A stretch of 64,000 nt of DNA, from contig NZ_JASNNW010000001.1 of assembly GCF_030165005.1 (NCBI RefSeq), positions 1-64,000 on the forward strand. Direction: 5' to 3'. Each line of letters begins with the position of its first letter. Within the stretch, counting starts at the first letter, position 1. The position numbers and the translations under genes were made by a program. Origin of the DNA: Blastococcus capsensis. Its GTDB lineage: Bacteria > Actinomycetota > Actinomycetes > Mycobacteriales > Geodermatophilaceae. This document shows positions 20,002 through 58,179 of the stretch, one piece after another. The notes below the pieces were generated by a model. The model was not told the origin of the DNA, did not search any database, and saw only the letters and a list, made by a program, of their open reading frames with translations.

Positions 20002-20021
20002 ACCGTTATCCCCAACAATAA
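20002..20021 (-). repeat. dispersed element, copy 1 (TTATTGTTGGGGATAACGGT)
   Basis: On the minus strand this reads TTATTGTTGGGGATAACGGT, identical over 20 bp to copy 2 at 37096-37115 and over 16 bp to copy 3 at 57856-57871. It is embedded in AT-rich DNA, ends 11 nt before the ATG of the unknown gene at 19990, and could include a promoter -10 (GATAAC). Read as ACCGTTATCCCCAACA it points toward the dif site. Confidence 0.8.
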
Positions 20022-20137
20022 TTCAATTCAAAATTGTCGGCACCTGCCGTTGACGACCACCAGCGCCCTCCGAGCGCCGAAGCACCAACACAGGAGGCCG
20101 AGCGAGAACAGCGCTGCACGACGCCCCGGCGACCCGG

Positions 20138-21325
20138 ATGATGGGTCCGATGCGAACCATGGGCGTCGAGGAAGAACTGCTGGTCGTCGATGCCGACGGT
20201 GTGCCCGTACCCGAGGGCCCCGAGGCGCTGGCCGTCGCTGCACGGCGCGGTGAGGGGGAGGACGTCGAACAGCACGACCGCGCGGACCGAGGAGAGGCCG
20301 TCGCTGCCCCGGAGACGGCCCACCTGGCGCCCGAGCTCAAAGCGCAGCAGGTCGAGCTGGGGACGCCGGTCTGCGCGACGCTCGCCGAGGTGGAGAGCCA
20401 GCTGCGCCACTGGCGACAGCGCGCCGACGCCGCCGCGGTGGCCGTCGGAGCACGGATCGCGGCGCTGGCCACCTCTCCGGTCGCCGTCGAGCCGGTTCCG
20501 ACCGAGGGGGAGCGCTACGGGCGGCTGATGGACGCCTTCGGCCAGACCGCCCGCGACGGGCTCACCTGCGGGTGCCACGTGCACGTCTCGGTCGCCGACG
20601 ACGAGGAAGGCGTGGCCGTTCTCAACCGCATCCGGATATGGCTGCCGGTGCTCACCGCGATGACCGCCAACTCCCCGTTCTGGCAGGGGCAGGACACCGC
20701 CTACGCCAGCTTCCGGTCGCAGGTGTGGCAGCGGTGGCCCTCGGCCGGCCCCACCGGGCCCTTCGCCGCCGCGGCGGACTACCACCGGCTCGTCGACGCC
20801 ATGCTGCAGACCGGGACGGTCCTGGACGCCGGCATGGTCTACTTCGACGCCCGGCTCTCGGCACGCTGGCCGACCGTGGAGGTGCGTTCGGCCGACGTCG
20901 CCCTCCGGGTCGAGGACGCCGTGACGCTGGCCGGCCTGGTGCGGGGGCTGGTCGAGACGGCCGCCCGGGATGCGGGCGGCGGGGGAGCGGTGCCGGAGAT
21001 GCGACCGGAGCTCCTGCGCCTGGCCGCCTGGCGGGCCGGGCGCTCCGGCCTGTCCGGAGAGCTCGTCCACCCGCGCACCGGCCGCCCGGCCGCGGCCGCC
21101 GACGTCCTCACCGACCTCCTCGACCACGTCCGCCCCGCACTCGCCGACGCCGGCGACGAGCAGCGCGTCTCCGACGGGGTGGCGGCCCTGCTCTCCCGGG
21201 GCACCGGCGCCGACCTCCAGCACCGTGTGCACCAGGAGACCGGCGACCTCACCGCTGTCGTCCGGGCCGCGGTCGCCGCCACCGCGGGAGGGGACCCTCG
21301 GGCGACCGTCGGGGCCAGCCGCTAG
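20138..21325 (+). CDS. carboxylate-amine ligase (YbdK/glutamate-cysteine ligase type 2 family)
   Basis: A 395-residue GCS2-family protein. It opens MRTMGVEEELLVVDADG, the ATP and glutamate-binding start of the family, and continues with APELKAQQVELGTPVCATLAE, TCGCHVHVSVADDEEGV (the HVHV metal motif), MTANSPFWQGQDTAYASFRS and RWPTVEVRSADVALRVEDA. Members catalyse weak glutamate-cysteine or other amide ligation; the physiological product is uncertain, and dedicated mycothiol or ergothioneine genes are not adjacent. Starts at 20138 or 20150 are possible. The gene is divergent from the recombinase-like gene, with copy 1 of the dispersed element between. Confidence 0.9.
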   Translation: MMGPMRTMGVEEELLVVDADGVPVPEGPEALAVAARRGEGEDVEQHDRADRGEAVAAPETAHLAPELKAQQVELGTPVCATLAEVESQLRHWRQRADAAAVAVGARIAALATSPVAVEPVPTEGERYGRLMDAFGQTARDGLTCGCHVHVSVADDEEGVAVLNRIRIWLPVLTAMTANSPFWQGQDTAYASFRSQVWQRWPSAGPTGPFAAAADYHRLVDAMLQTGTVLDAGMVYFDARLSARWPTVEVRSADVALRVEDAVTLAGLVRGLVETAARDAGGGGAVPEMRPELLRLAAWRAGRSGLSGELVHPRTGRPAAAADVLTDLLDHVRPALADAGDEQRVSDGVAALLSRGTGADLQHRVHQETGDLTAVVRAAVAATAGGDPRATVGASR

Positions 21326-21334
21326 ATTCCGCGC

Positions 21335-22195
21335 ATGTACACCGCGAGCTGGCGTGACGTCGTCCGTCCCGGGCTGTTCGGTGCCGCACCCGACCCACGG
21401 GACAAGCCCTACCGGTTCGTCATCCGGATCGCGCTGGTCGTCTTCCGGCTGCTGCGCTTCCGGTTCGACGTCCGCGGCGCCGAGCACGTCCCCGCGACCG
21501 GCGGCGCGATCATCTGCAGCAACCACGTCAGCTTCTTCGACTTCACCTTCCTCGGCCTGGGTGCGCTGCCGCAGCACCGTCTGGTGCGGTTCATGGCGAA
21601 GTCGGCGGTGTTCGACCACGGGTTCGCCGGCCCGTTCATGCGGGCCATGAACCACATCCCGGTCGACCGGAAGGCCGGTTCCGCCGCCTTCGAGACCGCC
21701 GTGCGCGCGCTCAAGGACGGCGAGATCGTCGGGATCTTCCCCGAGGCGACGATCAGCACCAGCTTCACGGTGAAGGGGCTCAAGGCCGGCGCGGCCCGCA
21801 TGGCCATCGACTCCGGCGTGCCGATCATCCCCGCCGCCGTGTGGGGCGGGCACCGGGTGGCCACGAAGAACCACAAGGTGGAACTGCGTCGCGGCGTCCC
21901 CGTGACGGTGATCCTGGGTGAGCCGATCGTCGCCGAGCCCGGTGTGCAGATCCCGGCCCTCCTGGGGCGCGTGCGCACGGCCATGGAGGCGCTGCTGGAC
22001 GAGGCGCAGCGCACCTACCCCGACCAGCCGGCCGGCGACGACGACCGGTGGTGGCAACCGGCCCACCTCGGCGGCACCGCCCCCACCCCGTCCGAGGCGG
22101 CCGCCGCCGACTCGGTGCGCGCCGCCGGGCGGGAGACGCGGGCCACCAAGCGGACGCTCGGCCGGCGGATCAGCGGCCTGCTGCGGCGCCGCTGA
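21335..22195 (+). CDS. 1-acyl-sn-glycerol-3-phosphate acyltransferase (PlsC family)
   Basis: A 286-residue lysophosphatidic-acid-type acyltransferase. It contains the catalytic NHVSFFD (NHx4D), the binding block FMAKSAVF, the GPFMRAMNHIPVDRKAGS region, the FPEATIS motif (equivalent to FPEGTRS) and IPAAVWGGH. It likely adds the second acyl chain during phospholipid synthesis or acts on a related acceptor. An Ala/Arg-rich C-terminal tail of about 40 residues is not part of the catalytic fold. It starts 9 nt after the ligase gene and is probably co-transcribed. A second member of the family lies at 30843-31733. Confidence 0.92.
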   Translation: MYTASWRDVVRPGLFGAAPDPRDKPYRFVIRIALVVFRLLRFRFDVRGAEHVPATGGAIICSNHVSFFDFTFLGLGALPQHRLVRFMAKSAVFDHGFAGPFMRAMNHIPVDRKAGSAAFETAVRALKDGEIVGIFPEATISTSFTVKGLKAGAARMAIDSGVPIIPAAVWGGHRVATKNHKVELRRGVPVTVILGEPIVAEPGVQIPALLGRVRTAMEALLDEAQRTYPDQPAGDDDRWWQPAHLGGTAPTPSEAAAADSVRAAGRETRATKRTLGRRISGLLRRR

Positions 22196-22198
22196 AGA

Positions 22199-22723
22199 TC
22201 ACTCGACCACGACGGGTGCCATGAGCCGGAACGCTTCGAGCTCGACGTCGTACCAGCGGGTCATCCGGCCCAACGGTGTCATCCCCAGCCGCCTGCAGAC
22301 CGCCATCGACGGCGCGTTGCCGGGCCGCACGACGGCGTAGACCTCGGGCAGGCCGAACTCGAACGCGCGGTCCACCACCGCCCGCGCGGCCTCTGTGGCG
22401 TAACCGCGTCCCCACGAGTCGGGGTGGAGGTGCCAGCCGACCTCGATCTCCCCGACCCCGTTCGGCAGCGGCTTGAGCAGCACCGTCCCGGCCGACACGC
22501 CGTCGGGCCGCTCGATGGCCCAGCAGAGGAAGCGGGGGTCGAGCTGGTGCACCGCGGTCCAGCGGGCCACGAGCTCGTCCGGTGGCACGGAGGGGCCGCC
22601 GCCCAGCCACCTGGTCACCTCGTCGCGGCCGTAGATGTCGGCCAGCCGGGCGAGGTCCGCGGCACCGGTGGTCCACGGCCGGAGCCGTAGCCGCTCCGTG
22701 CACACCTGCTCGACCACGTCCAT
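22199..22723 (-). CDS. GNAT-family N-acetyltransferase (RimJ/RimL type)
   Basis: A 174-residue acetyltransferase starting MDVVEQVCTERLRLRPWT, the usual opening of RimJ/RimL-type GNAT proteins. It has LKPLPNGVGEIEVGWHLHPDSWGRGYATEAARAVVDRAF (beta-bulge and acetyl-CoA loop, W-G-x-G-Y-A-T-E-A) and NAPSMAVCRRLGM at the end of the fold. It acetylates an amino group on an unknown protein or small molecule. It converges with the acyltransferase, 3 nt apart. The C-terminus MTRWYDVELEAFRL is typical of the family. Confidence 0.92.
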   Translation of the reverse strand: MDVVEQVCTERLRLRPWTTGAADLARLADIYGRDEVTRWLGGGPSVPPDELVARWTAVHQLDPRFLCWAIERPDGVSAGTVLLKPLPNGVGEIEVGWHLHPDSWGRGYATEAARAVVDRAFEFGLPEVYAVVRPGNAPSMAVCRRLGMTPLGRMTRWYDVELEAFRLMAPVVVE

Positions 22724-22913
22724 CCCTCCTGCTTACCGTCGCCGCGGGGCCGTGGCCACCTGGGAACGCCGGGTACCCCGGCGGTTGCAGCGTCAGCAGC
22801 GGGCAACACGGCGGCCGCCCGGCCGGAGGCGCGCCCGTCGACCGTGGTCTGCTGTGTGTCCGGAGCACCGCCGTCCCCGGGCGGGGCCACGAGGCGGAAG
22901 GACGGCGGCGGAC

Positions 22914-24458
22914 GTGACCGGTTCCGGCAGGAACGCGCAGGTGCGCGGATCCCTGCTGCTCACCGACGTGACCGTCGGCGACCGGCCTGGCAGAGCGGTG
23001 CAGGTCGTCGACGGCCGGATCGCCTGGCTGGGCGCAGCCGCCGACGCCCCTGCCGCCGGCCGGGTGGTCGGGGGAGAGGGGGCGCTGCTCACACCCGCCT
23101 TCGTCGACGCCCACGTGCACGCGACCGCCACCGGACTCGCGCTGACCGGTCTCGACCTCCACTCGAGCCTGAGCCTTGCCGACGCGGTGGCGTCGTTGCG
23201 GGCGCACGTCGCCGGAGTGCCCGTCGGCATCGTCCTGGGCACCGGCTGGGACGAGACCGGCTGGCCGGAGCGTCGCGGTCTCACCCGGGCCGATCTCGAC
23301 GCGGTGGCGGGGAGCCGGCCGGTCTACCTGGCGCGGGTCGACGTCCACTCCGCCACGGTCTCGACCGCGCTGCTCGACCTCGTCCCGGGCATCACCGGCC
23401 TGCCGGGCTTCTCGTCCGACGGCAGGCTGCGCCTGGACGCCCACCACGCCGCCCGCCAGGCGGCGTACGGTGCGGTCGGGCCGGCCCAGCGCCGCGCTGC
23501 GCAGCGGGCCACCCGGGCGGCCGCCGCCGCTCTGGGCATCGGCAGCCTGCACGAGATGGCCGGGCCGGAGGTCTCTTCGGCCGATGACCTGTCGGAGCTG
23601 CTGCTCCTGGCCGGCGACGAGCCGGGCCCGCGGGTGCTCGGCTACTGGGGTGAGCTCTCCGAGCGCGGTGGCCTGGAGCTCGTCCGCGAGCTCGCCCTGG
23701 CCGGCGCAGGGGGAGACCTGTTCTGCGACGGCGCACTCGGTTCGCACACCGCGGCCCTGAGCAGCCCGTACCACGACCGGCTGGACACGTCCGGCGTGCT
23801 TCGGTTCGAGACGGCGTCGCTCGTGGCGCACGTGCGGGCCTGCACGGCGGCCGGCATCCAGGCGGGCTTCCACTGCATCGGCGACGCCGCCGTCGGCCAG
23901 GTGCTGGACGCGGTGGCCGCGGTCGTCGCAGAGCTCGGCGTCGCCGCCGTCCGTTCCTGCCGGCACCGCCTCGAGCACCTGGAGATGCCCTCGGCCCAGG
24001 TGGTGGAGCGGATGGCCGAGTGGCACATGGTCGCGAGCGTGCAGCCGGCCTTCGACGCCGCCTGGGGTGGGGACGCGGGTATGTACGCGGAGCGGCTGGG
24101 CGTGGAGCGCGCCCTGGCCACCAACCCGTTCGCCGACCTCGCCGACGGCGGCGTCGCCCTGGCGCTGGGCAGCGACGCACCGGTGACAGCACTGGACCCG
24201 TGGGGTGGCGTGCACGCCGCCGTCGACCACCGGACGCCCGGCTCGGGCCTGCGCCCGTTCGACGCGTTCGACGCCGCGACCCACGGCGGCTGGGTCGCCG
24301 CCCGCTCCGAGCACCCCGCGGGCCCCCTCGCCGTCGGCGCAGCGGCCGACCTCGCCCTGTGGGCGACCGGGAACGGGCTGTCGCGGGTCCTGGCGGACCG
24401 GTCCCGCCTGGGCTGCCGGCTGCTGCTCGTCGACGGCGTCCCGGTCGGGAACTCCTGA
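22914..24458 (+). CDS. amidohydrolase-family protein (YtcJ-like)
   Basis: A 514-residue metal-dependent hydrolase. The HxH metal motif is seen in TPAFVDAHVHATATGL; later segments are LGTGWDETGWPERRG, FCDGALGSHTAALSSPY, FHCIGDAAVGQVLDA (second metal histidine), HRLEHLEM and ALGSDAPVTALDPWGG (C-terminal metal aspartate). The layout matches the YtcJ/NfdA branch of amidohydrolases, which hydrolyse N-acyl or formamide substrates. The substrate is not predictable. The GTG at 22914 is the first start giving the N-terminal beta sandwich (LLTDVTVGD). It stands alone, divergent from the GNAT gene. Confidence 0.9.
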   Translation: MTGSGRNAQVRGSLLLTDVTVGDRPGRAVQVVDGRIAWLGAAADAPAAGRVVGGEGALLTPAFVDAHVHATATGLALTGLDLHSSLSLADAVASLRAHVAGVPVGIVLGTGWDETGWPERRGLTRADLDAVAGSRPVYLARVDVHSATVSTALLDLVPGITGLPGFSSDGRLRLDAHHAARQAAYGAVGPAQRRAAQRATRAAAAALGIGSLHEMAGPEVSSADDLSELLLLAGDEPGPRVLGYWGELSERGGLELVRELALAGAGGDLFCDGALGSHTAALSSPYHDRLDTSGVLRFETASLVAHVRACTAAGIQAGFHCIGDAAVGQVLDAVAAVVAELGVAAVRSCRHRLEHLEMPSAQVVERMAEWHMVASVQPAFDAAWGGDAGMYAERLGVERALATNPFADLADGGVALALGSDAPVTALDPWGGVHAAVDHRTPGSGLRPFDAFDAATHGGWVAARSEHPAGPLAVGAAADLALWATGNGLSRVLADRSRLGCRLLLVDGVPVGNS

Positions 24459-25031
24459 CCCACCCGGGACTTCCTGGACAGCAGGTCTCCCCGGTGGCCG
24501 GACAAGATGTGTCGGGGACAACGATCAGTAACGATCCGGTCACACTGCGGCTCGCAGCTCTCCGGGGTCTCGATCTCTGGGCGCCGTGGTTCTTACAGTG
24601 CCTGCAGTTCCTGACCGGACGCACCGCCTGAGTGCTCTCCCGGCAGGCGCGCCAGGCCCCCCGGCCGGCGTGGCCGGCAGCCGCCGGCCACGCCCCCGGG
24701 TCGTGGGGGACGGGCGTGCCGCCGGCGGACGCGGAGGCGGGCATCCCGGCGGAGCCCACGCCGACCCGCGCCATCAGACAACGGTCGCGCCCCTCGCCGC
24801 CAGCGAGTGGCCGTCCGGCCCGAAGGTGCGTCGCCCGCGTGCGGCGACCGCTGGCGCGACCCGTGCAGGAGATCCGGAGCCCGGACAGGTGGTGTGGGGA
24901 ACGTCCGCTCACCCGCCGGGCGTAGATGGGATGCTGGGTCAGGACCGCGCGGAACCGCCGGTCCGGACCCTGCCCGAGCGGTGCGGGGACGATCCGCCCC
25001 TCGGGGCGCCGGCACCTCCCGGAGGCTCTGC
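24459..25031 (+). other. intergenic region before lnt with one candidate small ORF
   Basis: No conserved gene is recognisable over 573 bp. One GTG-started frame at 24509-24631 would give a 40-residue peptide with an amphipathic aromatic C-terminus (LRGLDLWAPWFLQCLQFLTG), in a segment less GC-rich than its surroundings; there is no good ribosome-binding site. The right-hand half is GC-rich leader DNA with short palindromic stretches (CGGAACCGCCGGTCCGG). GGAGG at 25021 is the ribosome-binding site of lnt. Confidence 0.45.
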
Positions 25032-26678
25032 GTGCCCGTAGGCGATGCTGGGCCGGCGACGGGCACGCTCGCCCGGCCGACCGGCCCCGACGTCGCCGCC
25101 CACCCGGGCGCGGCTGCGCGCCGCGCGCTGCGGGCGCCGTGGCGCACGCTGCTGGCCGCTGCCGGTGGGCTGGCGATGTTCCTGTCCTTCCCCGGTCACG
25201 ATCTGACCACCCTCGCCGTCCTGGGGCCGGCCGCGCTGGCCGTGGCGGTCCGGGGCGTCCGGGTGCGCACCGGGCTCTGGCTGGGCCTGGTCATGGGACT
25301 CGCGTTCTTCGTGCCGCTGCTCTCCTGGACCGGCATCTACGTCGGGGCGTTCCCGTGGCTGGCCCTCGCGCTCAGCCAGGCGCTCTACCTGGCGCTGCTC
25401 GGTGCGGCGACAGCACTCACCTCCCGGCTGCCGGCGTGGCCGGTGTGGGCGGCCGCGCTCTGGGTCGCCGACGAGGCGATCCGGGGGCGCTTCCCCTTCG
25501 GTGGCTTCCCGTGGGGCCGGCTCGGGTTCTCCCAGAGCGAGGGACCGCTGCTCGCGCTGGCCGCCTACGGCGGCGTGCCCCTCGTCAGCTTCGCGGTCGC
25601 CCTCGTGGGCGCCCTGCTGGCTGCCGCGGCGCTCGCCCTCGGCCGGGCCTGGCGTGCCGGAGCGGCCTCGGCGGGGGAGCAGCGGGGCGCCGTCCGCTCG
25701 GCGCTGCGGCTCGCCGCCCTCGTGCTGGCCGTGCCGCTGATCGGTGCGCTGGCCTGGCTGCCCCTGCCCGGTGACTCGCTGACGGCGGGCGGGCCGACCG
25801 CCGCGGTCGCGGTCATCCAGGGCGACGTCCCCCGCGCGGGACTGGACTTCAACGCCCAGCGCCGGGCCGTGCTGGACAACCACGTCCGGCAGACCCTGCA
25901 GCTGGCCGCCGACGTGGCCGCGGGGGAGCAGCCGCAGCCCGACGTCGTCCTGTGGCCGGAGAACAGCTCCGACATCGATCCCTACACCAACGCCGACGCG
26001 GCCACGCAGATCCAGCGGGCCGCCGACGCCGTCGACGCGCCGATCCTGGTCGGGGCCGTCGTGGACGGTCCCGGGCGGTACATCAGCAACACCGCGATCG
26101 TCTGGACGCCGGAGAACGGCCCCGGCGACACCTACGTCAAGCGCCATCCGGTGCCCTTCGCCGAGTACGTGCCGGCGCGGGACTTCTTCCGCTTCTTCAG
26201 CGAGAAGGTGGACCTGGTCCGCCGGGACTTCGCCGCGGGCGACGAGGTGGGCCTGCTCGAGGTGGGCGGCATCCGGCTGGGCGACCTGATCTGTTTCGAG
26301 GTGGTCTACGACGGCCTGGTCCGCGACGTCGTGGACGCGGGCGCCGGCATGCTCGTCGTCCAGACCAACAACGCGACGTTCGGCTACACCGACGAGAGCG
26401 CCCAGCAGCTGGCGATGAGCCGGCTGCGCGCCGTCGAGTACGGGCGGACGGTGGCGGTCGCCGCGACCAGCGGTATCTCCGCGATCGTGGCACCCGACGG
26501 CACCGTCGTCCGGTCCTCGGAGCTGTTCGAGCCCGCGATCTTCGTCGAGGAGATCGCACAGCGCGACGGCGCCACGGTGGCGCTGCGCCTCGGCTCCGCC
26601 CCGGAGTGGGTGCTCACGGCGCTGGGACTGGCGGCACTGCTCTGGGCGGTCCGGGCACGACGGGGGAGCGCGGCGTGA
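25032..26678 (+). CDS. lnt: apolipoprotein N-acyltransferase
   Basis: Transfers an acyl chain to the N-terminal cysteine of lipoproteins in the membrane. About eight hydrophobic segments lie in residues 40-245, then the periplasmic nitrilase domain with its triad: Glu in VVLWPENSSDID, Lys in YVKRHPVPFAEYVP and Cys in LGDLICFEVVYDG. A final membrane helix ends the protein at residue 548. The GTG at 25032 is chosen because GGAGG stands 6 nt upstream; the frame extends further 5' but as non-conserved GC-rich translation. It overlaps the ppm gene (GTGA). In M. tuberculosis the two functions are fused in Ppm1; here they are separate coupled genes. Confidence 0.94.
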   Translation: MPVGDAGPATGTLARPTGPDVAAHPGAAARRALRAPWRTLLAAAGGLAMFLSFPGHDLTTLAVLGPAALAVAVRGVRVRTGLWLGLVMGLAFFVPLLSWTGIYVGAFPWLALALSQALYLALLGAATALTSRLPAWPVWAAALWVADEAIRGRFPFGGFPWGRLGFSQSEGPLLALAAYGGVPLVSFAVALVGALLAAAALALGRAWRAGAASAGEQRGAVRSALRLAALVLAVPLIGALAWLPLPGDSLTAGGPTAAVAVIQGDVPRAGLDFNAQRRAVLDNHVRQTLQLAADVAAGEQPQPDVVLWPENSSDIDPYTNADAATQIQRAADAVDAPILVGAVVDGPGRYISNTAIVWTPENGPGDTYVKRHPVPFAEYVPARDFFRFFSEKVDLVRRDFAAGDEVGLLEVGGIRLGDLICFEVVYDGLVRDVVDAGAGMLVVQTNNATFGYTDESAQQLAMSRLRAVEYGRTVAVAATSGISAIVAPDGTVVRSSELFEPAIFVEEIAQRDGATVALRLGSAPEWVLTALGLAALLWAVRARRGSAA

Positions 26679-27448
26679 CCGATCGCGTCCTGGTGGTCAT
26701 CCCGACGTACAACGAGGTCGACAACCTGGCAGAGGTGCTGGAGCGGCTGCACGCCAGCAACCCGGACGCGCACGCCCTCGTGGTGGACGACGGCTCACCC
26801 GACGGCACCGGAGCGCTCGCCGACACGCTCGCCGCCCACGACCCGCGCATCCACGTCCTGCACCGCACCGCGAAGGCCGGGCTCGGCCGCGCCTACGTGG
26901 CCGGGTTCCGCTGGGCCCGCGAACGTGGCTACGACGTGCTGGTCGAGATGGACGCCGACGGCTCGCACCCGCCCGAGCAGCTGCCCCGCCTGCTCGCCGC
27001 GCTGGCCGACGCCGACCTCGTGCTCGGCTCGCGGTACGTCGACGGTGGCCGGGTCGAGGACTGGCCGCTGCACCGGCTGCTCCTCTCCCGCATGGGCAAC
27101 AGCTACACCCGCCGGGCGCTGCGCCTGCCGCTGCACGACGCCACCGGCGGCTTCCGCGCCGCCCGCGGCGAGCTGATCGACCGGCTGCCCTTCGACGAGG
27201 TCGCCAGCGAGGGGTACTGCTTCCAGGTGGACTGGGCGTGGCGGGCGGTGCGGGCCGGCGCCCGGGTCACCGAGGTACCGATCACCTTCTCCGAGCGCAT
27301 CCTCGGCCGGAGCAAGATGAGCGGCTCGATCGTTGGAGAGGCGTGGGTACGGGTGACGGTGTGGGGCGTGCAGGACCGGCTGGCCGGCTGGCTGCCGGGC
27401 CGGGTGCCGCCGCCGCTGCCCCGCCCGGCCGAGGAGCCCGGGCAGTGA
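26675..27448 (+). CDS. ppm: polyprenol-phosphate mannosyltransferase
   Basis: A GT2-family enzyme of 257 residues that makes polyprenyl-phospho-mannose from GDP-mannose, the mannose donor for lipoglycans and protein O-mannosylation. It begins DRVLVVIPTYNEVDNLAEVL, has VVDDGSPDGTG, the DxD-type VEMDADGSHPPEQLP, DLVLGSRYVDGG and the C-terminal ITFSERILGRSKMSGSIV typical of dolichol-phosphate mannose synthases. There is no membrane anchor of its own, so it probably depends on the neighbouring Lnt, as the fused mycobacterial protein does. The GTG start overlaps the lnt stop by 4 nt. Confidence 0.94.
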   Translation: MTDRVLVVIPTYNEVDNLAEVLERLHASNPDAHALVVDDGSPDGTGALADTLAAHDPRIHVLHRTAKAGLGRAYVAGFRWARERGYDVLVEMDADGSHPPEQLPRLLAALADADLVLGSRYVDGGRVEDWPLHRLLLSRMGNSYTRRALRLPLHDATGGFRAARGELIDRLPFDEVASEGYCFQVDWAWRAVRAGARVTEVPITFSERILGRSKMSGSIVGEAWVRVTVWGVQDRLAGWLPGRVPPPLPRPAEEPGQ

Positions 27449-27511
27449 CCCACAGCCGGCGGGACCGCCGCCGGGCCGAGAAGGGGCTCCGGCCCCGGAG
27501 GAGGGATCGTC

Positions 27512-28036: not shown

Positions 28037-28047
28037 CCGCAGACGCG

Positions 28048-28084
28048 GAACGGCCCCGGTGGATAATTTCCACCGGGGCCGTTC
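28048..28084. terminator. bidirectional intrinsic terminator between fxsA and rbpA
   Basis: A perfect 16-bp inverted repeat: GAACGGCCCCGGTGGA, 5-nt loop TAATT, then its exact complement. It sits between convergent fxsA (ends 28036) and rbpA (ends 28132), so it can stop both transcripts. There is no long U tract, as is common in actinobacteria. Confidence 0.9.
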
Positions 28085-28131
28085 GAGAGCTGATCAATCG
28101 GCCCGCCTCCAGGGGAGAGGCGAGCCGTTCT

Positions 28132-28476: not shown

Positions 28477-28570
28477 GGCACACCGTCCTCTCGTCTTGTG
28501 TCGGTCGGGACTCGACGTCCGATCGCCGGGGCCTTACCCAGACGACCGAGGAGTCAGAGAGATGAACGAC

Positions 28571-34886: not shown

Positions 34887-34914
34887 GGCGCCGATAATCC
34901 ACATTATGTCAACT
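34887..34914 (+). other. dif: dif site for XerC/XerD chromosome dimer resolution
   Basis: The 28 bp consist of an 11-bp arm GGCGCCGATAA, a 6-bp centre TCCACA and an 11-bp arm TTATGTCAACT. Against E. coli dif the left arm keeps GG, GC and ATAA, and the right arm keeps TTATGT and most of the rest; the ATAA-N6-TTATGT core is exact. It is a single intergenic copy in AT-richer DNA. If correct, this is the replication terminus. A mobile element that exploits Xer sites is the alternative, but no second copy was found in the window. Confidence 0.85.
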
Positions 34915-37095: not shown

Positions 37096-37115
37096 TTATT
37101 GTTGGGGATAACGGT
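37096..37115 (+). repeat. dispersed element, copy 2 (TTATTGTTGGGGATAACGGT)
   Basis: Identical over 20 bp to copy 1 at 20002-20021 (opposite strand), and the following bases are also similar (both have ATnGACGGC a few nt downstream). It sits in an AT-rich 50-bp patch in the 138-bp gap before the membrane peptidase gene. A GTTT 15 nt before GGGGAT would fit a SigB-like promoter. It lies 2.2 kb right of dif. Confidence 0.8.
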
Positions 37116-37168: not shown

Positions 37169-37906
37169 GTGCGGGACCCCCGGCGCGACGGAGGAGACAT
37201 CCTGGAGCGGCTGCAGCGCTGGTGGGCGCAGGTGAGCGCGACGGTCCCCGATCTGTCCCCCGGCCTGCTGTGGGGCAGCGCCGCCGTGGCGGCGCTCCTG
37301 GTCGGCTCCCCCGCGGCGTGGCGGCTCACCCGCAACGTCGTGACGATCGCCCACGAGGGGGCGCACGGCCTGGTGGCCGCGGCCGTGGGCCGCCGGCTGG
37401 CCGGCATCCGGCTGCACTCCGACACCTCCGGGCTGACCGTCTCCGCCGGCCGCCCCACCGGGATCGGCATGGTGCTCACCTGCGCGGCCGGTTACACCGG
37501 CCCCGCACTGTTCGGCCTGGGCGCGGCCGCGCTCCTGACCGCGGGCCACGCCGTCGGCCTGCTCTGGGCCCTGCTGGCCCTCCTGGCACTGCTGCTGGTC
37601 CAGATCCGCAACTGGTACGGCCTGTGGTCGGTGCTGGTCACCGGCGGGATCGTCTTCGCGGCCACCTGGTGGCTGCCGCCGGCGGGCCAGGCGCTGTTCG
37701 GGGCGGTGGCCACCTGGTTCCTGCTGCTGGCCGCGCCGCGCGCGGTGCTGGAGCTGCACGGGGCCCGGCGCCGCCGGGCCGCACCGGACTCCGACGCCGA
37801 CCAGCTCGCCCGCCTGACCCGCCTCCCGGCTCCCCTCTGGGTCGGCTTCTTCCTCGCCGTCGACGTCGGGGCGCTCGCGTTGGGCGCCCGCTGGCTGATC
37901 AGCTGA
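37169..37906 (+). CDS. M50-like membrane metallopeptidase
   Basis: A 245-residue polytopic protein with about five to six membrane helices. The HExxH zinc motif appears as HEGAH within VVTIAHEGAHGLVAAAVG at the start of the second helix. A later NWYGLWSVLVTGG segment could hold the third zinc ligand or structural Asn. This matches the M50B-like family common in actinobacteria (intramembrane peptidase or inactive relative). No PDZ domain is present, so it is not a classical RseP or Rip1. GTG 37169 is used. Substrate unknown. Confidence 0.85.
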   Translation: MRDPRRDGGDILERLQRWWAQVSATVPDLSPGLLWGSAAVAALLVGSPAAWRLTRNVVTIAHEGAHGLVAAAVGRRLAGIRLHSDTSGLTVSAGRPTGIGMVLTCAAGYTGPALFGLGAAALLTAGHAVGLLWALLALLALLLVQIRNWYGLWSVLVTGGIVFAATWWLPPAGQALFGAVATWFLLLAAPRAVLELHGARRRRAAPDSDADQLARLTRLPAPLWVGFFLAVDVGALALGARWLIS

Positions 37907-45275: not shown

Positions 45276-48293
<3,018 letters not shown>

Positions 48294-49805: not shown

Positions 49806-49921
49806 GGTGCGGCTCCCTCGGCTGCGGCCCTGGACTCGGGCGGGACGGTGGTGGTCGGGCGGCCGGTGACGGGTCGGTACGTCGGTCGTCTCGGCCGGCG
49901 AGGGCTCCACGGTACGCCGCG

Positions 49922-50650: not shown

Positions 50651-50726
50651 GCCCCTCTCTCGCCGGGATCCCGTCGCGGGATCCCGGGCTGCGGTCCCCA
50701 CATGCGGAAGATCGCCGGACGGTGCA

Positions 50727-51242: not shown

Positions 51243-51507
51243 GTTGCGTCTCCTCCGGTACGAGGGGCCAGCCGCGGGGCCTCGAACGGGCCGCGGGCGG
51301 CCGGCGGACGGTGGGCCGGGCGGCCCGCCGTGGGACGGCCGCCGCGGGAGGGCGGCGGACCGTGGGTCATGGAACCAGCCGGTCGGCCCGAGGGTCAACC
51401 GGACGTGCGGAGCCGGGGCGGGCGGTTTCCCCGCAGGTCCTCCGCCGTTCCCGGTACCAGCGCGATCATAGTGAGCGACGCCGGGAGCAGCCTCCCGGCG
51501 GCCCCGG

Positions 51508-51912
51508 CTACGAGCCCTCGATCAGCGCCTGGTAGGCGGCCGCGTCGAGCAGCAGGCCGATCGGGTCGCCGACCTCCACCGGGACGGCGATGTCGACCAG
51601 CCAGCCCGCGCCGTACGGATCGGCGTTGATGGTCTCCGGCGCGTCGGTGAGCCGCTCGTTCACCGCCGCGACCACGCCCTTCACGGGGGCATAGATGTCG
51701 GAGACGGACTTCGTCGACTCGACCTCGCCGATGGCCGTCCCGGGGGCCACCTCCGCACCCACCTCGGGCAGCTGGACGAAGACGATGTCGCCCAGCGCGT
51801 CCTGGGCGTGGTGGGTGATCCCGACCCGGACGACGGGCGACGTGCCGTCGGTGCCCTGCACCAGTGCCCACTCGTGCTGGTCGGTGTAGCGGCGGTCGTC
51901 CGGTGTTGCCAT
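51508..51912 (-). CDS. gcvH: glycine cleavage system H protein
   Basis: A 134-residue lipoyl carrier that shuttles the aminomethyl group from GcvP to GcvT. It contains YTDQHEWALVQG, VGITHHAQDALGDIVFVQLPEVGAEV and the lipoylation site VESTKSVSDIYAPVKG (Lys in ESTKS). The end DPYGAGWLVDIAVPVEVGDPIGLLLDAAAYQALI is standard. ATG 51912 is preferred over 51927 because it begins directly at the conserved MATPDDRRYTDQHEW. gcvP lies 3.2 kb downstream, separated by the regulator genes. Confidence 0.96.
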   Translation of the reverse strand: MATPDDRRYTDQHEWALVQGTDGTSPVVRVGITHHAQDALGDIVFVQLPEVGAEVAPGTAIGEVESTKSVSDIYAPVKGVVAAVNERLTDAPETINADPYGAGWLVDIAVPVEVGDPIGLLLDAAAYQALIEGS

Positions 51913-51994
51913 GTGATGCGTCTCCAATGGGTGCTACGGCCTGCCTGCAGGGGCCGCCGCGAGCATGCGAGCGGTGGGGCAGAAAGGTCCTCGA

Positions 51995-52780
51995 TCAGTC
52001 GCCGGTGTCGGGCGCAGCGTATTGAGGGCGGTCCAGCGGCCGCAACGCGTCCACGACCAGAGCGGGCGACTGGGCGATCTCCACGGTGCCGCCCACCCGC
52101 TCGATGCTCTGGACGATGCCTCCCGGGATGAACATGGCCGTCTCCATGTTCTGCGGCTCCCCCAGGACGACGAACTCGTAGGGCGCCCGCAGCGGCGTGC
52201 CGTCGACCCGGAGCCGGCCCGGCTGTCCCGTGACGGCGCTGGACAACCCGATGCGGACGCCGTCGACCTGCATCGTCTCGGCGCCGGCACCGCGCAGTTC
52301 CTGGACGATGTCGATGATGTCGGACACCCCGACCTCGTCGGAGGGGTCCCGGACGGTGAGCGTCAGCCCGGGTCCCTGCGCCGGCAGCGTGCCGTTCAGG
52401 GTCCCCAGGGCCTCGGCCCGGCGGCGCGCCTCCTGCAGGGCCGTGGCCGTCCGGCTGTCGGAACCGGTCAGCTCCCGAAGGGCCGCACGCTGGTCGGCCA
52501 GCTGGGACCGCAGCCGGTCCTCCCGGCCGTCGAGCTCGTCGAGGATGCGCACGAGGTCCTCCTCCCGTGCGCCGGCCAGCATCTGGGCCTCGTCGGCGTT
52601 GCGGACCTGGACGGCGAGCGCGAAGCCGAGCAGCAGGGTGAGGACGCCGATCAGCGCAGCGGCCAGCGGGTCCCGGCCCCGCCGCCGCGCCGTCGCGGTG
52701 GCCGTCGGGTCCCCGGGAGGAGCCCCGGCGTCCGCCCCGTCGGCGGGTGCCGGGGCGTCGGGCCGTTCGGCGTCGGTCAT
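51995..52780 (-). CDS. DUF881 family membrane protein
   Basis: A 261-residue protein with a disordered N-terminal part (Ala/Pro/Asp-rich), one membrane helix (DPLAAALIGVLTLLLGFALAVQV, about residues 37-59), a coiled coil ([23 protein letters not shown]) and the DUF881 domain (GPGLTLTVRDPSDEVGVSDIIDIVQELRGAGAETMQVDGVRIG). It corresponds to Rv1825 of M. tuberculosis. The family resembles FtsQ/DivIC-like or YlxW sporulation proteins; the function is unproven, with envelope or division links. It overlaps the small basic protein by 4 nt. Confidence 0.92.
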   Translation of the reverse strand: MTDAERPDAPAPADGADAGAPPGDPTATATARRRGRDPLAAALIGVLTLLLGFALAVQVRNADEAQMLAGAREEDLVRILDELDGREDRLRSQLADQRAALRELTGSDSRTATALQEARRRAEALGTLNGTLPAQGPGLTLTVRDPSDEVGVSDIIDIVQELRGAGAETMQVDGVRIGLSSAVTGQPGRLRVDGTPLRAPYEFVVLGEPQNMETAMFIPGGIVQSIERVGGTVEIAQSPALVVDALRPLDRPQYAAPDTGD

Positions 52781-53109
52781 GCCCGGAACACGTGCCGCCG
52801 GATGGCCGCGGCGTTGCCGAAGATGCGGATGCCGAGCACCACGACGACCGCCGTCGACAGCTGGGCGCCGACGCCGAGCTGGTCGCCGAGGAAGACGATG
52901 AGCGCGGCGACCACGACGTTGGAGACGAACGAGATGACGAACACCTTGGCGTCGAAGATGCCGTCGAGCCGGGCGCGGAAGCCACCGAACACCGCGTCCA
53001 GCGCGGCGACCACGGCGATCGGCAGGTAGGGCTGCAGCCACAGCGGGACGGTGGGGTCGAAGAGCAGGCCCAGGAGGACGCCGGCCGCCAGTCCGAGGAT
53101 GGGGATCAC
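52777..53109 (-). CDS. sbp: small basic family protein (DUF1290)
   Basis: A 110-residue membrane protein with three helices: IPILGLAAGVLLGLLF, YLPIAVVAALDAVFGGFRA and VFVISFVSNVVVAALIVFLGDQLGVG. The LDAVFGGFRARLDGIFDAKVF segment is the DUF1290 signature. It corresponds to Rv1824 and to Bacillus SbpA, found beside DUF881 genes and ftsZ-related clusters. GTG 53109. Function unknown; probably forms a complex with the DUF881 proteins on both sides. Confidence 0.93.
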   Translation of the reverse strand: MIPILGLAAGVLLGLLFDPTVPLWLQPYLPIAVVAALDAVFGGFRARLDGIFDAKVFVISFVSNVVVAALIVFLGDQLGVGAQLSTAVVVVLGIRIFGNAAAIRRHVFRA

Positions 53110-53113
53110 GGCG

Positions 53114-54019
53114 TCAGCCTCCGGGGGTGGGATCGGCACCGGTGCCCGCGCCGGGATCGACCGGTTCGGCGGAGCGGAGCTCGGGCGGGCTGGCGGCGGG
53201 CAGGGACAGCTCGTCCTCCTTGGCGAAGTCGAACCGGAGACCGAAGTTGAGCGAGTCCTCGGCCAGGGCCTGGACCTGCGGGCTGAGGAGGAAGGCGTTG
53301 GCGAGCTCGTCCGGGTCTCCGACGGCACTGATCTCGTACGGGTCGGTGACCGGCCGGAAGTTGACCAGTACCGCCTCCCCGGCGAAGCGGATGGCGCTGG
53401 TGGGCCCCAGTCGCTGGCCGTTGATGCTGATCGCCTCCGCGCCTGCGGCCCAGAGTGCGTTGACCACGCGCTGCAGGTCCCCGTCCTGGACCCGGCCGAG
53501 GGGGTCGGCCACCACCGAACCGCCGCCCACGAGGTCGTCGTCGGGCTCCGCCTCGGCGTTGGCCAGGGTGACGAGCAGCCCGGGCCCGGTGACGGCGACC
53601 GCCGCGGTGCCCTGCTCGGCACGCGCCAGGGCGTCCCGTGCCCGTTGCCCCACCGCGGTGGCGTCGAGCAGGTCGTCTCTGGTCCGGCTGACCTCGGCCC
53701 GGAGCTCGGCGAGCTGGTCGACCAGTTCGTCGCTGACCGCCGATGCCTGCTGGATGTCGCGCACGAGGGCGGCGCGGATCTCCTGCCGGCCCTGCGCCCG
53801 GTCGGCCGCCAGTCCGTAGGTCACGGCGGCGAGCAGTCCGGCCACGGCCATCGCGAGGGCGACCAGCACCCGCCCGCGCCCGCGGCGCGGGGGTTCCGCT
53901 CGGGCGGTCCGCGCGGCGGCCGCCTGGGCGTACGCCGGGTCCAGCGTCTCGGCGAGGACGTCGTCGAGCAGCGAGGCGCCCAGCGACCGCACCCCGCCCG
54001 GCGGCCGTCGGTCGGTCAC
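53114..54019 (-). CDS. DUF881 family membrane protein (second copy)
   Basis: A 301-residue protein with a soluble start (VRSLGASLLDDVLAETLDPAYAQAAAAR), one membrane helix (VLVALAMAVAGLLAAVTYGLA), a coiled coil (SAVSDELVDQLAELRAEVSRTRDDLLDA) and a DUF881 domain (GPGLLVTLANAEAEPDDD, RVVNALWAAGAEAISINGQRLGPTSAI). It corresponds to Rv1823. It is a diverged paralogue of the protein at 51995-52780 and has a distinct acidic, proline-rich C-terminus. It starts by GTGA overlap with the CDP-alcohol transferase gene and lies 4 nt from sbp, so all are one operon. Confidence 0.92.
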   Translation of the reverse strand: MTDRRPPGGVRSLGASLLDDVLAETLDPAYAQAAAARTARAEPPRRGRGRVLVALAMAVAGLLAAVTYGLAADRAQGRQEIRAALVRDIQQASAVSDELVDQLAELRAEVSRTRDDLLDATAVGQRARDALARAEQGTAAVAVTGPGLLVTLANAEAEPDDDLVGGGSVVADPLGRVQDGDLQRVVNALWAAGAEAISINGQRLGPTSAIRFAGEAVLVNFRPVTDPYEISAVGDPDELANAFLLSPQVQALAEDSLNFGLRFDFAKEDELSLPAASPPELRSAEPVDPGAGTGADPTPGG

Positions 54020-54681
54020 GACCGGCGTCCGGGGCCCGCGGGCCGCTCGGCGGCCAGCAGTCCGACCACCTGGATGACGTAGAAGACGCCCGCGAGCAGG
54101 TACAGCGCGGTGCCCCAGATGGTGAGTGCCCAGGCGAACGGCGCGGCGACGGTCGCCAGCAGGCCGTCGCCGTCGGCCAGCAGCAGCCCGGGGAAGGCGT
54201 AGAGGAGCAGCAGCGTCGCCGCCTTGCCCAGGTAGTGCACCTGCAGCGGTGGCCAGCCGTGCGCCCGCAGGACCAGCAGCACCACGCCGAGGACGAGATC
54301 GCGGCCCAGGAGCAGCGCCACCATCCAGACCGGCACGACGTCGCGCAGGGCCAGCGCCACCAGCGTCGAGACGATGTAGAGCCGGTCCGCGGCCGGATCC
54401 AGGAGCGTGCCCAGGCGGCTGCCCTGGTCCATCCAGCGGGCGATCTTGCCGTCGAGCCAGTCGGTGAAGCCGGCGACCATGAGGACGACGACGGCCCAGC
54501 CGTCCTCCTCGGGACCGAGCAGGAGCCACAGGAACAGGGGGACGCCCAGCAGCCGGAGCACCGACAGCGCGTTCGGCACCGTCCAGATCCGGTCCGGCAG
54601 CGCCTCCCGGTCGATCCCTGCGCGAGGCGTCCCGGCGCCGGGTACGGGCGCGGGAGCCGACGGCCCGCTCGACGACGTCAC
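54016..54681 (-). CDS. CDP-alcohol phosphatidyltransferase (PgsA-like)
   Basis: A 221-residue membrane enzyme with about six helices. The CDP-alcohol motif D-G-x2-A-R-x8-G-x3-D-x3-D is complete in DGKIARWMDQGSRLGTLLDPAADR. The preceding WTVPNALSVLRLLGVPLFLWL is the classic PgsA start, so phosphatidylglycerophosphate synthase is the most likely activity; phosphatidylinositol-phosphate or cardiolipin synthesis cannot be excluded. In M. tuberculosis the gene at this position is pgsA2 (Rv1822). GTG 54681. First gene of the DUF881-sbp-gcvH run. Confidence 0.9.
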   Translation of the reverse strand: MTSSSGPSAPAPVPGAGTPRAGIDREALPDRIWTVPNALSVLRLLGVPLFLWLLLGPEEDGWAVVVLMVAGFTDWLDGKIARWMDQGSRLGTLLDPAADRLYIVSTLVALALRDVVPVWMVALLLGRDLVLGVVLLVLRAHGWPPLQVHYLGKAATLLLLYAFPGLLLADGDGLLATVAAPFAWALTIWGTALYLLAGVFYVIQVVGLLAAERPAGPGRRS

Positions 54682-54794
54682 GTTCCCTCCAGCCCCTGCA
54701 CCACCGTGCCCGAGGCTAGCTGAAGGACCCCGTCCCTCTCACCGCTCACAAGCTCGCGGCGAGCCTCTGGACGGGGCCACTGGGCACGGGGCCG

Positions 54795-56876
54795 TCAGGC
54801 GGGCACGGCCACCCCCGCCGGAGCGGGCTCGTAGCCCAGCGGGCCGCGGTCGAAGGTGGCCGTCCCGTGCGTGACCGAGCGGAGGACGCCGGGGTAGCCG
54901 AGCAGCTCGACCTCCGGCACCTCCGCGCGCACCGTGGTGCGGTCCCGGCCGTCCTGGGCCTCCGAGCCGGTCACCCGGGCGCGCCGGGAGGACAGGTCGC
55001 TCATCACCGCGCCCACGTACTCGCTGGGCGCCTCCACCTCGATCTGGCACCAGGGCTCCAGCACCCGGGTCCCGACCGCGGCCACCAGCTCCCGCAGCGC
55101 CAGCGCTCCCGCCGCCTGGAACGCGGCGTCGGAGGAGTCGACCGAGTGCGCCTTGCCGTCGACCAGGGTCACCCGGACGTCCACCAGCGGCCGGTCACCG
55201 TTCACCCCTCGCTCGGCCTGGGCCCGGATGCCCTTCTCCACGCTGCCGTGGAACTGGGAGGGCACCGTCCCCCCGACGATCCGCTGCTCGAACACGATGC
55301 CCGAGCCGGGCGGGCCCGGCTCCCCCTCCACCACGACCACGGCGTACTGCCCGTGCCCGCCGGACTGCTTGACGTGCCGGCCGGTCACGCGGGCCGGGCC
55401 GCACAGCGTCTCCACCAGCGGCACCCGCACCGGCACGGTGGTGACCGCGACGCCGTGCCGGGTGCTCAGCCGCTCCAGGAGGACCTCGGCGTGCGCGTCG
55501 CCGACGCACCACAGGAGCAGCTGACCGGTGGCGGCCCGTCGTTCCAGCCGCACCGTGGGATCCTCGGCGACCAGCCGGGCGAGCGCGGTGGCCAGTCGGT
55601 CCTCGTCGGCCCGCGAGGCCGCCTCCACCGCGACCGGGAGCTGCGGCACGGGCAGCTGCCACGGCGGGACCAGCCGCGGCTCCTCGGGACTGCTCAGGGT
55701 GTCGCCGGTCTCCGCGGTGGTCAGCCGGCTCACCGCGCAGATGTCGCCCGCCGGGCACGCCGCCACCGGGCGCAGCGCGGCACCCAGCGGCGCGGACAGG
55801 ACGCCGATCCGCTCGTCGGCATCGTGATCGGGGTGGCCCCGTTCGGCCATCCCGTGACCGGAGACGTGCACGGCGACGTCGGGTCGCAGCGTGCCGGAGA
55901 AGACCCGGACCAGGGAGACCCGGCCGACGTAGGGGTCGGTGGTCGTCTTCACGACCTCGGCCACCAGCGGGCCGTCCGGGTCGCAGGCCAACGGCGGCGC
56001 GGCCGAACCGTGGAGGTGCGTGACCGGCGGGCAGCCGTGCTCGGCGGGGCAGGGAAGGGCGGAGACCAGCAGGTCGAGCAGCTCGCGGACGCCGACGCCG
56101 GTCACCGGTGAGGCGCAGAGGACCGGGTGGAAGTGCCCCCGGGCGACAGCGGTCTCGAGGTCGGCCACGAGGTCGGCGACCGCCAACTCCTCGCCGGCGA
56201 GGTAACGCTCCATCAGCGTCTCGTCCTCGCTGTCGCCGATGATGCCCTCGATCAGCTCGCCGCGGAGCCGGTCGGCGTCCTGGTCCCCGACCGGCACGGA
56301 GTCGACGTCCGGCTCCAGCAGCGACACCAGCCCCCGGGCCGCCCCGTCGGGACCGCGCTCGACCAGGTGCAGGGGGTAGACCCCCTCCCCCAGCATCAGC
56401 TGGCAGAGCCGGACGGCCTCGGCCACGTCGGCGCGCGGCCGGTCGATCTGGCTGAGGACGACGGCGCGCGGCATCCCGACCGCGGCGCACTCCTCCCACA
56501 GCTGCACGGTGGCGGCGTCCACCCCGGCCACGGCGGAGACCACGAAGAGCGCGGAGTCCGCGGCCCGGAGCCCGGCCCGCAGCTCCCCGACGAAGTCCGG
56601 CGAGCCGGGGGTGTCGAGCAGGGTCAGCCGGTGGCCGGCGTGCTCGACGGTGGCGACACCGAGGGACACCGAGCGCTGCTGGCGGACCTCGACCTCCTCG
56701 CTGTCCAGGCACGTGGTGCCGTCTTCCACGCGGCCGGCGCGGGGCACCGCTCCCGTCGCGGCCAGCAGCGCCTCGGCGAGCGTGGTCTTCCCGGCGCCCG
56801 CCCGTCCGACGAGCGCGACGTTGCGCACCGTCGCGGCCGGGCGGGGGGCGGGAGCCGGGGGGATGTCCTTGCCCAT
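54795..56876 (-). CDS. fusA2: EF-G2, elongation factor G-like GTPase
   Basis: A 693-residue translational-type GTPase. G1 is LVGRAGAGKTTLAEALL, G3 is LLDTPGSPDFVGEL, and the G4 motif is SQIDRP instead of the usual NKxD, as in the EF-G2 branch (Rv0120c type). Domains II-V follow with GGHGQYAVVVVE (domain IV), FEQRIVGGTVPSQFHGSVEKGIRAQAERGV and the C-terminal EFG_C fold (EAPSEYVGAVMSDLSSRRARVTG). Such proteins bind GTP and ribosomes but do not replace EF-G in elongation; the role is undefined. ATG 56876. Isolated gene. Confidence 0.93.
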   Translation of the reverse strand: MGKDIPPAPAPRPAATVRNVALVGRAGAGKTTLAEALLAATGAVPRAGRVEDGTTCLDSEEVEVRQQRSVSLGVATVEHAGHRLTLLDTPGSPDFVGELRAGLRAADSALFVVSAVAGVDAATVQLWEECAAVGMPRAVVLSQIDRPRADVAEAVRLCQLMLGEGVYPLHLVERGPDGAARGLVSLLEPDVDSVPVGDQDADRLRGELIEGIIGDSEDETLMERYLAGEELAVADLVADLETAVARGHFHPVLCASPVTGVGVRELLDLLVSALPCPAEHGCPPVTHLHGSAAPPLACDPDGPLVAEVVKTTTDPYVGRVSLVRVFSGTLRPDVAVHVSGHGMAERGHPDHDADERIGVLSAPLGAALRPVAACPAGDICAVSRLTTAETGDTLSSPEEPRLVPPWQLPVPQLPVAVEAASRADEDRLATALARLVAEDPTVRLERRAATGQLLLWCVGDAHAEVLLERLSTRHGVAVTTVPVRVPLVETLCGPARVTGRHVKQSGGHGQYAVVVVEGEPGPPGSGIVFEQRIVGGTVPSQFHGSVEKGIRAQAERGVNGDRPLVDVRVTLVDGKAHSVDSSDAAFQAAGALALRELVAAVGTRVLEPWCQIEVEAPSEYVGAVMSDLSSRRARVTGSEAQDGRDRTTVRAEVPEVELLGYPGVLRSVTHGTATFDRGPLGYEPAPAGVAVPA

Positions 56877-57020
56877 GGGGCGTCACCTCGGGCGTGGTCG
56901 CCGGGGACGGCGGCCCGTGCGCGGCGCACGGCGTCTCCCGGCTCGCTGACGTGTCGTGGATCACAGCCTGCCGTCTCGCGCGAACCCCGACAAGCCCTCC
57001 GGGCGTCTTCGGCGGCCTGT

Positions 57021-57545
57021 TCAGCTCCTGCGCAGGGCGCTGGATGCGAGGCGCCGTGCTCCACGGCGGTGGAGCAGCCAGCCACCCACGAGCAGGAGCG
57101 CCCCGGACGCCAGGAAGCCGAGGTCCCAGCTCAGCGGCGCGCCGAGGTCGTCGCGGACGTGGTGCACGCCGAGGATCTGGTGGTCGACGAGCCCTTCGAC
57201 GAGGTTGAACAGCCCCCACCCGGCCAGCACCAGGCCGAAGTGGAAGCTCCAGCTGGGTGCCAGGCGGCCCTGCCGCCAGGCGATCAGGGCGGTGATCGTG
57301 CCGGCGAAGGCCAGCATCCAGGTGGCCACGTGGAAGAAGCCGTCGGCCAGGGTGTTGATCTCCAGGCCGGCCAGCGTGGTCGGCTCCCACCGCTCCACGT
57401 CGCTGACCATGTGGTGCCACTGCAGGATCTGGTGCAGCACGATGCCGTCGACGAACCCGCCGAAGCCGAGCCCGTAGAGCAGCCCAGGTGACCTCGTGGG
57501 CATGCGTGCGACCCGGTCGGGAGCCGTCTCGGGAGCGGTGGCCAT
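57021..57545 (-). CDS. DUF2243 family membrane protein
   Basis: A 174-residue membrane protein with four helices. It starts PGLLYGLGFGGFVDGIVLHQILQWHHM, continues ADGFFHVATWMLAFAGTITALIAWRQG and GWGLFNLVEGLVDHQILGVHHVRDD. The several conserved His (LHQILQWHH, VDHQILGVHHV) are characteristic of DUF2243 and may bind a metal. The gene is 144 nt downstream of the EF-G2 start in the same direction. Function unknown. Confidence 0.92.
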   Translation of the reverse strand: MATAPETAPDRVARMPTRSPGLLYGLGFGGFVDGIVLHQILQWHHMVSDVERWEPTTLAGLEINTLADGFFHVATWMLAFAGTITALIAWRQGRLAPSWSFHFGLVLAGWGLFNLVEGLVDHQILGVHHVRDDLGAPLSWDLGFLASGALLLVGGWLLHRRGARRLASSALRRS

Positions 57546-57599
57546 GCCGCTGCGCTACCCCACTGCCGCCCCGGCACGCCCGCGACGCATGCTGGGTGC

Positions 57600-57800
57600 A
57601 TGACGACCGACCACGCGGCGGGCCGCGATCAGGCGACGGGGCGGGCGCACGCCGTCCTCCGCACCACCGCCGACCTGCCGGCCCCCTGGGCCGCGCTGTG
57701 CGGCGCCTCGGTCGGGGTGGTGCAGGGGCGCTGGGACGGCCCCCGCGGGACCGGCTCGGCCGACCCCTGCCCGGAGTGCCTTCTCCTCACGACCGGTTGA
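57600..57800 (+). CDS. small protein of unknown function with a CxxC motif
   Basis: A 66-residue protein, ATG 57600 to TGA 57800. Its second half has WAALCGASVGVVQGRW and a final CPECLL, so three cysteines could bind one zinc. Similar short W-x-x-L-C-G ... C-P-x-C proteins with such spacing are common actinobacterial hypotheticals. No ribosome-binding site is obvious. Moderate confidence that it is coding; no function can be given. Confidence 0.55.
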   Translation: MTTDHAAGRDQATGRAHAVLRTTADLPAPWAALCGASVGVVQGRWDGPRGTGSADPCPECLLLTTG

Positions 57801-58179
57801 CGGCCGACCCTTCTCGTCGTGGCGTGTCGTGAGCCGGTCGGAATCTTTGCGCAGCTGTTGGGGATAACGGTCGATCCGGATCGGGACCGCGGCACGACTC
57901 CGTCACCTGGCGGGCTACCGGGCCCGCCCCCGGACGAGATCCTCGAGGATCTGACCCGCACATCTGGAGCCCGGGCAACCGCATCGAGGGCTTCCGTGTG
58001 GGTTCACGTCCGGCGACCTCGGCCCCACCGGGAAGTGGCGGCAGGAGCTGCTGCGGAACCCGGCCTGGGATCCTGCCCGTCAGCGCGTCCCCCGTCCGGC
58101 CCCGCGGCCGGCCCTGCCACGACCGGAGAGACATGACGACCACCCGGCCACTCGCTCCTCGTCCTCCTCGGAGCGTCCG
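57801..58179. other. intergenic region with copy 3 of the dispersed element
   Basis: About 380 bp without a convincing gene. Apart from the element at 57856-57871 it contains GC-rich DNA with short inverted stretches (CGGGCTACCGGGCCCG near 57912). Frames in both directions are short and low-complexity. GGAGAGACATG at 58128 could start a frame that ends after 16 codons at the folD remnant and is not convincing. Confidence 0.5.
57856..57871 (+). repeat. dispersed element, copy 3 (TGTTGGGGATAACGGT)
   Basis: The 16-bp core TGTTGGGGATAACGGT is identical to copies 1 and 2; the next bases CGATC resemble copy 2 (GCATC). It lies 22.9 kb right of dif in the same orientation as copy 2. No gene start follows within 300 bp except the folD remnant at 58180. 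Confidence 0.75.

Follow-up and report, generated by a model that had tools for sequence, protein, structure and literature searches.

The window analyzed here is a 64,000-nucleotide stretch of the Blastococcus capsensis genome (contig NZ_JASNNW010000001.1, positions 1 to 64,000), in which an asymmetric 16-mer, TGTTGGGGATAACGGT, occurs in three exact copies around dif. Site 1, on the left arm, lies at 20002..20017 on the minus strand; sites 2 and 3, on the right arm, lie at 37100..37115 and 57856..57871 on the plus strand. Between sites 1 and 2, at 34892..34911 on the plus strand, stands the predicted dif core, CGATAATCCACATTATGTCA, the chromosome dimer resolution site that marks the terminus, named here by sequence likeness. 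Beside site 1, the gene P0001 (19145..19990, minus strand), present in a single copy in this genome, encodes a putative replication terminator protein of 281 amino acids that is strongly basic (isoelectric point (pI) 10.97, 35 arginines). Site 1 overlaps the putative promoter of this gene, site 2 is intergenic and upstream of an M50B peptidase gene (37169-37906), and site 3 is also intergenic. The element is very probably a polar replication terminator (ter-like) site and the adjoining gene its terminator protein, which together would form a fork trap around dif.

The initial annotation of this DNA had reported the three copies of the 16-mer, and their positions and strands were confirmed. They were the only exact copies in the whole genome (4.39 Mb, 51 contigs), whereas a reversed control sequence gave no exact match there. 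The same annotation had judged chance recurrence unlikely, which agrees with our counts. Allowing up to three mismatches, the window held four matches against a mean of 0.07 in shuffles; the fourth, at position 24510, carried three mismatches. At this threshold the whole genome yielded 21 matches, comprising the three exact copies, one with two mismatches, and 17 with three mismatches. The reversed control yielded 10, so the matches with three mismatches are mostly background. The near-copy with two mismatches lies on another contig of the same genome (C21:19613-19628, plus strand) and keeps the 13-mer core exact. Sites 1 and 2 share 20 bp, TTATTGTTGGGGATAACGGT, and all three sites are intergenic, both as previously described. 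The latter rests on a rough open reading frame (ORF) caller based on GC content at third codon positions (GC3), made for this analysis, which placed none of the three inside a gene-like ORF. By its calls, 33 of the 39 copies checked fell outside coding DNA, which made up 72% of the sequence.

Conservation in related genomes, a check that the initial annotation had proposed, was extensive. The 13-mer core, TTGGGGATAACGG, was found in 92 of 112 Geodermatophilaceae genomes, while its reversed control matched none. These 92 genomes hold 363 exact copies in total, with 1-10 per genome, in agreement with the core count genome by genome. The protein gene was found in 93 of the 112 genomes, with one match per genome except in G016. 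Core-bearing genera make up 8 of the 12 in the family and are exactly those holding the protein gene, and none of the 19 genomes without the gene contained an exact core. Neither gene nor exact core was found in the 18 genomes (G066-G083) of genera g5-g8. G035 was the sole genome with the gene but without the exact core, and it carries a copy with two mismatches directly upstream of the gene. In G094, only a piece of the gene is present. Two side observations concern single genomes. In G016 the gene lies in two overlapping pieces in different frames (G016:C2:58827-59661), the result of a frameshift or an assembly error, and G097 of genus g9, which is 72% complete, lacks both the gene and an exact core. 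In a 257-Gb sequence collection, the 15-mer GTTGGGGATAACGGT occurred in at least 118 stretches. Named records among the matches listed include Geodermatophilus, Blastococcus, and Modestobacter; the other listed ones come from various unrelated bacteria, as would be expected of chance matches in a collection of this size. Separately, a weakly conserved YCG was seen upstream of the core, at -9 to -11 from it, in gene-adjacent and other copies alike, and may be part of the binding site.

The position of these copies was compared with that of dif. This site was located first with a trial pattern and then with a family pattern, CGATAATNNACNTTATGTCA, which was present in 100 of the 112 genomes (once in 99, twice in G033). 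The pattern also occurs in genus g8, one of the genera without the trap. In nine genomes, the distance from dnaA to dif was 46-53% of the chromosome, with the trap centre used for G107. On the 78 contigs carrying both dif and exact core copies, the median distance of the 302 copies from dif is 17 kb, and 284 of them are no more than 50 kb away. Median values for the innermost gap between a minus and a plus copy, counting exact copies, were 19 kb for g1, 18 kb for g3, 28 kb for g9, and 166 bp for g2. Several asymmetric sites thus surround the terminus opposite oriC.

The strand order of the copies was then examined. Copies on both strands were present on 77 contigs, which hold 323 of the 363 exact core copies and give 406 opposite-strand pairs. 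The order was broken in none of the 406, as no plus copy lay to the left of a minus copy. The chromosome of G093, which is a single contig, was treated as circular for this count, and one of its copies was shifted past the record start. Minus copies on the left and plus copies on the right follow the rule of a fork trap, because breaking this order would leave DNA unreplicated; sites so ordered would let forks enter and not leave. If strands were random, the observed order would have a probability of about 1e-62 over all contigs, which takes them as more independent than they are, and of about 1e-8 when each genus is represented by one contig. We also searched 12 genomes allowing one mismatch. 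In 10 of them, all 76 copies lay on the arm predicted by their strand, among them every one of the 10 copies that lie over 100 kb from dif, and the reversed control gave three matches in the 12 genomes. In G107, where no dif was found, the trap centre took its place as the reference for this count, and the genome length used for G021 was a rounded one. The remaining two genomes, G023 and G031, have two copies each, in trap order and both on one side of dif; they were left out because one copy in each would fall on the wrong side with dif as the reference.

The initial annotation had stated that every copy points toward dif, and this held in the window. Across the 78 contigs with dif and copies, 292 of 302 copies obey this rule and 10 break it. 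Each of the 10 exceptions belongs to an inverted pair that lies next to the terminator gene, at 10-23 kb from dif; the partner copy is exact in eight cases and has one mismatch in two (G026 and G028). There are eleven exact inverted pairs, spaced 137-167 bp apart, and each keeps the minus copy on the left and the plus copy on the right. We regard these exceptions, which violate the dif rule and keep the trap order, as the strongest argument for fork arrest. A translocase guide that needs to reach dif would not give pairs of this kind, whereas a fork trap may sit beside dif but never be reversed. Of the functions first suggested for the element, fork arrest is strongly supported.

The gene beside site 1 was found to be closely tied to the element. 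Eleven bases lie between the end of site 1 and the ATG of the 281-residue ORF, on the same strand. At the end of the site stands a -10-like hexamer, TAGATT (19997..20002, minus strand), only 6 bp before the ATG. This arrangement, common to relatives, suggests that the transcript may be leaderless. An exact copy on the same strand lies at most 200 bp upstream in 69 of the 92 genes compared (G035 left out). Among 79 distinct upstream regions, 77 hold a copy with up to two mismatches (53 exact, 21 with one, and 3 with two mismatches), and the two without one are tiles cut off within the gene; one further tile was too short to read. In the cases printed, 12-15 bp separate the end of the core from the start codon. 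Of the 53 distinct exact copies beside the gene, 52 have a TANNNT motif, resembling a -10 box, after the core, against only 3 of 73 others. Since the motif is mostly confined to gene-adjacent copies, the site does not seem to be a promoter in its own right and overlaps a putative one only at this gene, which argues against the earlier proposal that the copies are promoters of an alternative sigma factor. The overlap with the putative promoter suggests autorepression. Adjacency and co-occurrence together point to a dedicated terminator gene with a site in its predicted promoter.

These results are consistent with the following mechanism. The protein would bind the site asymmetrically. A fork coming from oriC would meet the sites of its own arm from the GGT end and pass them, and it would stop at the first site of the other arm, met from the TGTTG end. 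Fork fusion would thereby be confined between the innermost opposed sites. Binding to the promoter copy would repress the gene for the protein, as reported for tus and rtp. The roadblock itself may be a catalytically dead tyrosine recombinase recruited to this role, for which the support is moderate.

The origin of the protein was examined with sequence profiles. The window protein had no Pfam match up to an E value of 10, and none in NCBIfam or among PDB sequences. For 24 family members, Pfam gave three stray weak matches, none to RTP (best E 0.046), and PHROGs gave weak matches (best E 0.028). A profile of these 24 members was aligned by hhalign with a profile of 13 tyrosine recombinases, giving a probability of 83.8, an E value of 7.9e-6 for this single comparison, and a score of 45.2. 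The alignment is colinear over 186 columns and spans residues 28-218, covering the core-binding and catalytic domains. As controls, 60 column shuffles scored at most 23.1 and the reversed profile scored 14.4. Residues 1-110 and residues 95-281 each scored above 30 shuffles, while the C-terminal segments 195-281 and 215-281 were no better than shuffles, and the alignment with recombinases does not reach the final 60 or so residues. At the column aligned to the catalytic Arg-I of XerD, all 24 members carry A, P, or T, and in none of the 24 does a tyrosine, the nucleophile of these enzymes, follow residue 249. With moderate confidence, we propose that the protein has a tyrosine-recombinase fold and is catalytically dead.

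Several observations weigh against this interpretation, for the protein or for the trap. The strength of the recombinase signal varies with how deep the recombinase profile is, and only recombinase alignments gave it. With only 4 recombinases in the profile the E value was 0.001-0.01, and four single recombinase sequences were not separated from 35 unrelated proteins when compared with the protein profile. The structure model, built from nine sequences, was poor (mean predicted local distance difference test (pLDDT) 60.9, predicted template modelling score (pTM) 0.36). In this model the N-terminal part is helical, and after it come helices, three short strands, and again helices, an order also seen in tyrosine recombinases. 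As for the trap, 37 contigs, carrying 40 of the 363 copies, do not allow the order to be judged, and site counts are not independent events because the genomes are related. In four genomes whose pair lies about 20 kb from dif, GC skew over 180 kb each was not strong enough for the switch or termination point to be placed.

Four other explanations for the element were considered. The initial annotation had raised a translocase guide. Guides for FtsK such as KOPS and SRS are numerous along the chromosome and all point to dif, and a guide for FtsK/SpoIIIE of this type would account for the 292 of 302 copies that point there. It would leave unexplained why each genome has so few copies, why ten copies point away from dif with the trap order kept, and why the copies co-occur with one dedicated protein, and we consider it very improbable. 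An ordinary regulon, with the element serving as operator or promoter under control of the protein, would suit the copy overlapping the protein's own putative promoter and the placement of most checked copies outside called coding DNA. However, a regulon needs no strand order along the chromosome, and nearly all copies away from the gene lack a -10 motif, so this explanation is scarcely more credible than the guide. Least probable of all is that the copies are a cluster of DnaA boxes or relics of a dif arm. The resemblance to a DnaA box, also pointed out at first, lies in TTATCCCCA, which is one base off that box, and GATAA is common to the element and dif. Conservation extends past the 9-mer, however, and variants of the element such as TTGGGCATAACGG alter the box itself, making this assignment unlikely. 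The likeness to the dif arms, noticed by eye, was reached by 7% and 68% of shuffled sites.

The remaining alternative is that the protein and its sites unload or stop another translocase, such as structural maintenance of chromosomes (SMC)/condensin complexes traveling from oriC, while replisomes pass freely. Clustering at the terminus and polarity by arm would also suit a polar SMC unloader, and the remote tyrosine-recombinase profile recalls XerD, which PMC12322038 describes as an SMC unloader. The order of the sites is without exception, though, even in pairs 137-167 bp apart and 10-23 kb from dif; fork blocks need such order, and SMC unloading apparently does not. In addition, the gene has a site in its predicted promoter, as do both known terminator genes. 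We consider SMC unloading unlikely, although it is the most plausible of the four.

The reach of the putative fork trap beyond the family was then assessed. An order-wide search of 397 genomes gave 68 genomes with a match, 67 of them inside the family. The single match outside (E 9.6e-4 over 61 positions) was taken as chance. In a phylum sample of 396 genomes, the genome of the window alone matched. In the rows shown, both searches scored six candidates per genome, so distant relatives could be missed. A phage or plasmid origin was also tried as an explanation and rejected. Searching with the protein by tblastn gave one chance-level match in each, and a search with family members gave nothing beyond chance. 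No fork trap in Actinomycetota was found in the literature searched, whose coverage excluded most subscription papers, and neither was a paper on replication termination in Geodermatophilaceae or on the dif site of Geodermatophilus. The portions of two reviews that were available (PMC10331603 and PMC7174701) name no actinobacterial fork trap.

Herein, our findings are best read as pointing to a chromosomal fork trap that evolved independently and may be the third known; it appears unrelated to the traps of E. coli-like and Bacillus-like bacteria. We lean toward a fuller picture in which this is the third independent fork trap and the first in Actinomycetota. Its terminator would be a tyrosine recombinase shorn of its catalytic residues and now acting as a one-way roadblock, and in g2 the trap would have been reduced to a single pair of opposed sites, separated by 165-167 bp and lying about 20 kb from dif. 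According to the abstract of PMC4999828, what the fork trap precisely does is enigmatic. If our interpretation is true, a third independent origin would offer a new natural comparison, with the system retained in 93 of 112 genomes and four genera of the family in which it was not found. Traps 165-167 bp wide at about 20 kb from dif would mean that the fork fusion point is separable from the point of dimer resolution. Moreover, the protein is more like recombinases than like Tus or RTP and may therefore offer a new mechanism of polar fork arrest.

Among known terminus systems, the MatP site matS is palindromic and without polarity, unlike the asymmetric and strictly ordered element described here. 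Tus/Ter shares with it asymmetric sites around dif in trap order. In the E. coli K-12 tus region, a Ter site lies just upstream of tus on the same strand, the same layout as at the putative terminator gene. According to PMC8707476, this site is TerB, which autoregulates tus, and Tus traps fall into types I and II, covering narrow two-site and multi-site arrangements (Toft et al. 2021). Both forms also appear to exist in Geodermatophilaceae. Tus/Ter is found in Enterobacterales and relatives, however, and the candidate trap belongs to a different phylum. No Tus homologue (PF05472) was found in the 108 family genomes searched, while E. coli matched among 14 control genomes. A likeness of the sites to E. 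coli TerB, seen by eye, was dismissed after 40% of shuffled sites reached its local score.

The RTP/Ter system of Bacillus shares polar sites around the terminus, and according to PMC10331603 its terminator gene, rtp, also carries a ter site in its promoter area, as tus does. RTP sites consist of two dimer-bound half-sites, whereas the element here is one asymmetric core of about 16 bp. The RTP family (PF02334) gave no match to the candidate protein, the comparison being with this protein and not with the genomes themselves. XerC/XerD and phage integrases show colinear profile likeness to the protein, but the protein here lacks Arg-I and the C-terminal tyrosine. B. subtilis XerD, described as a sequence-specific SMC unloader in the terminus region in work cited in PMC12322038, offers a further parallel, as both would be recombinase-type proteins tied to the terminus region. 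The Geodermatophilaceae system differs from it in having a dedicated, apparently dead protein and strictly ordered sites.

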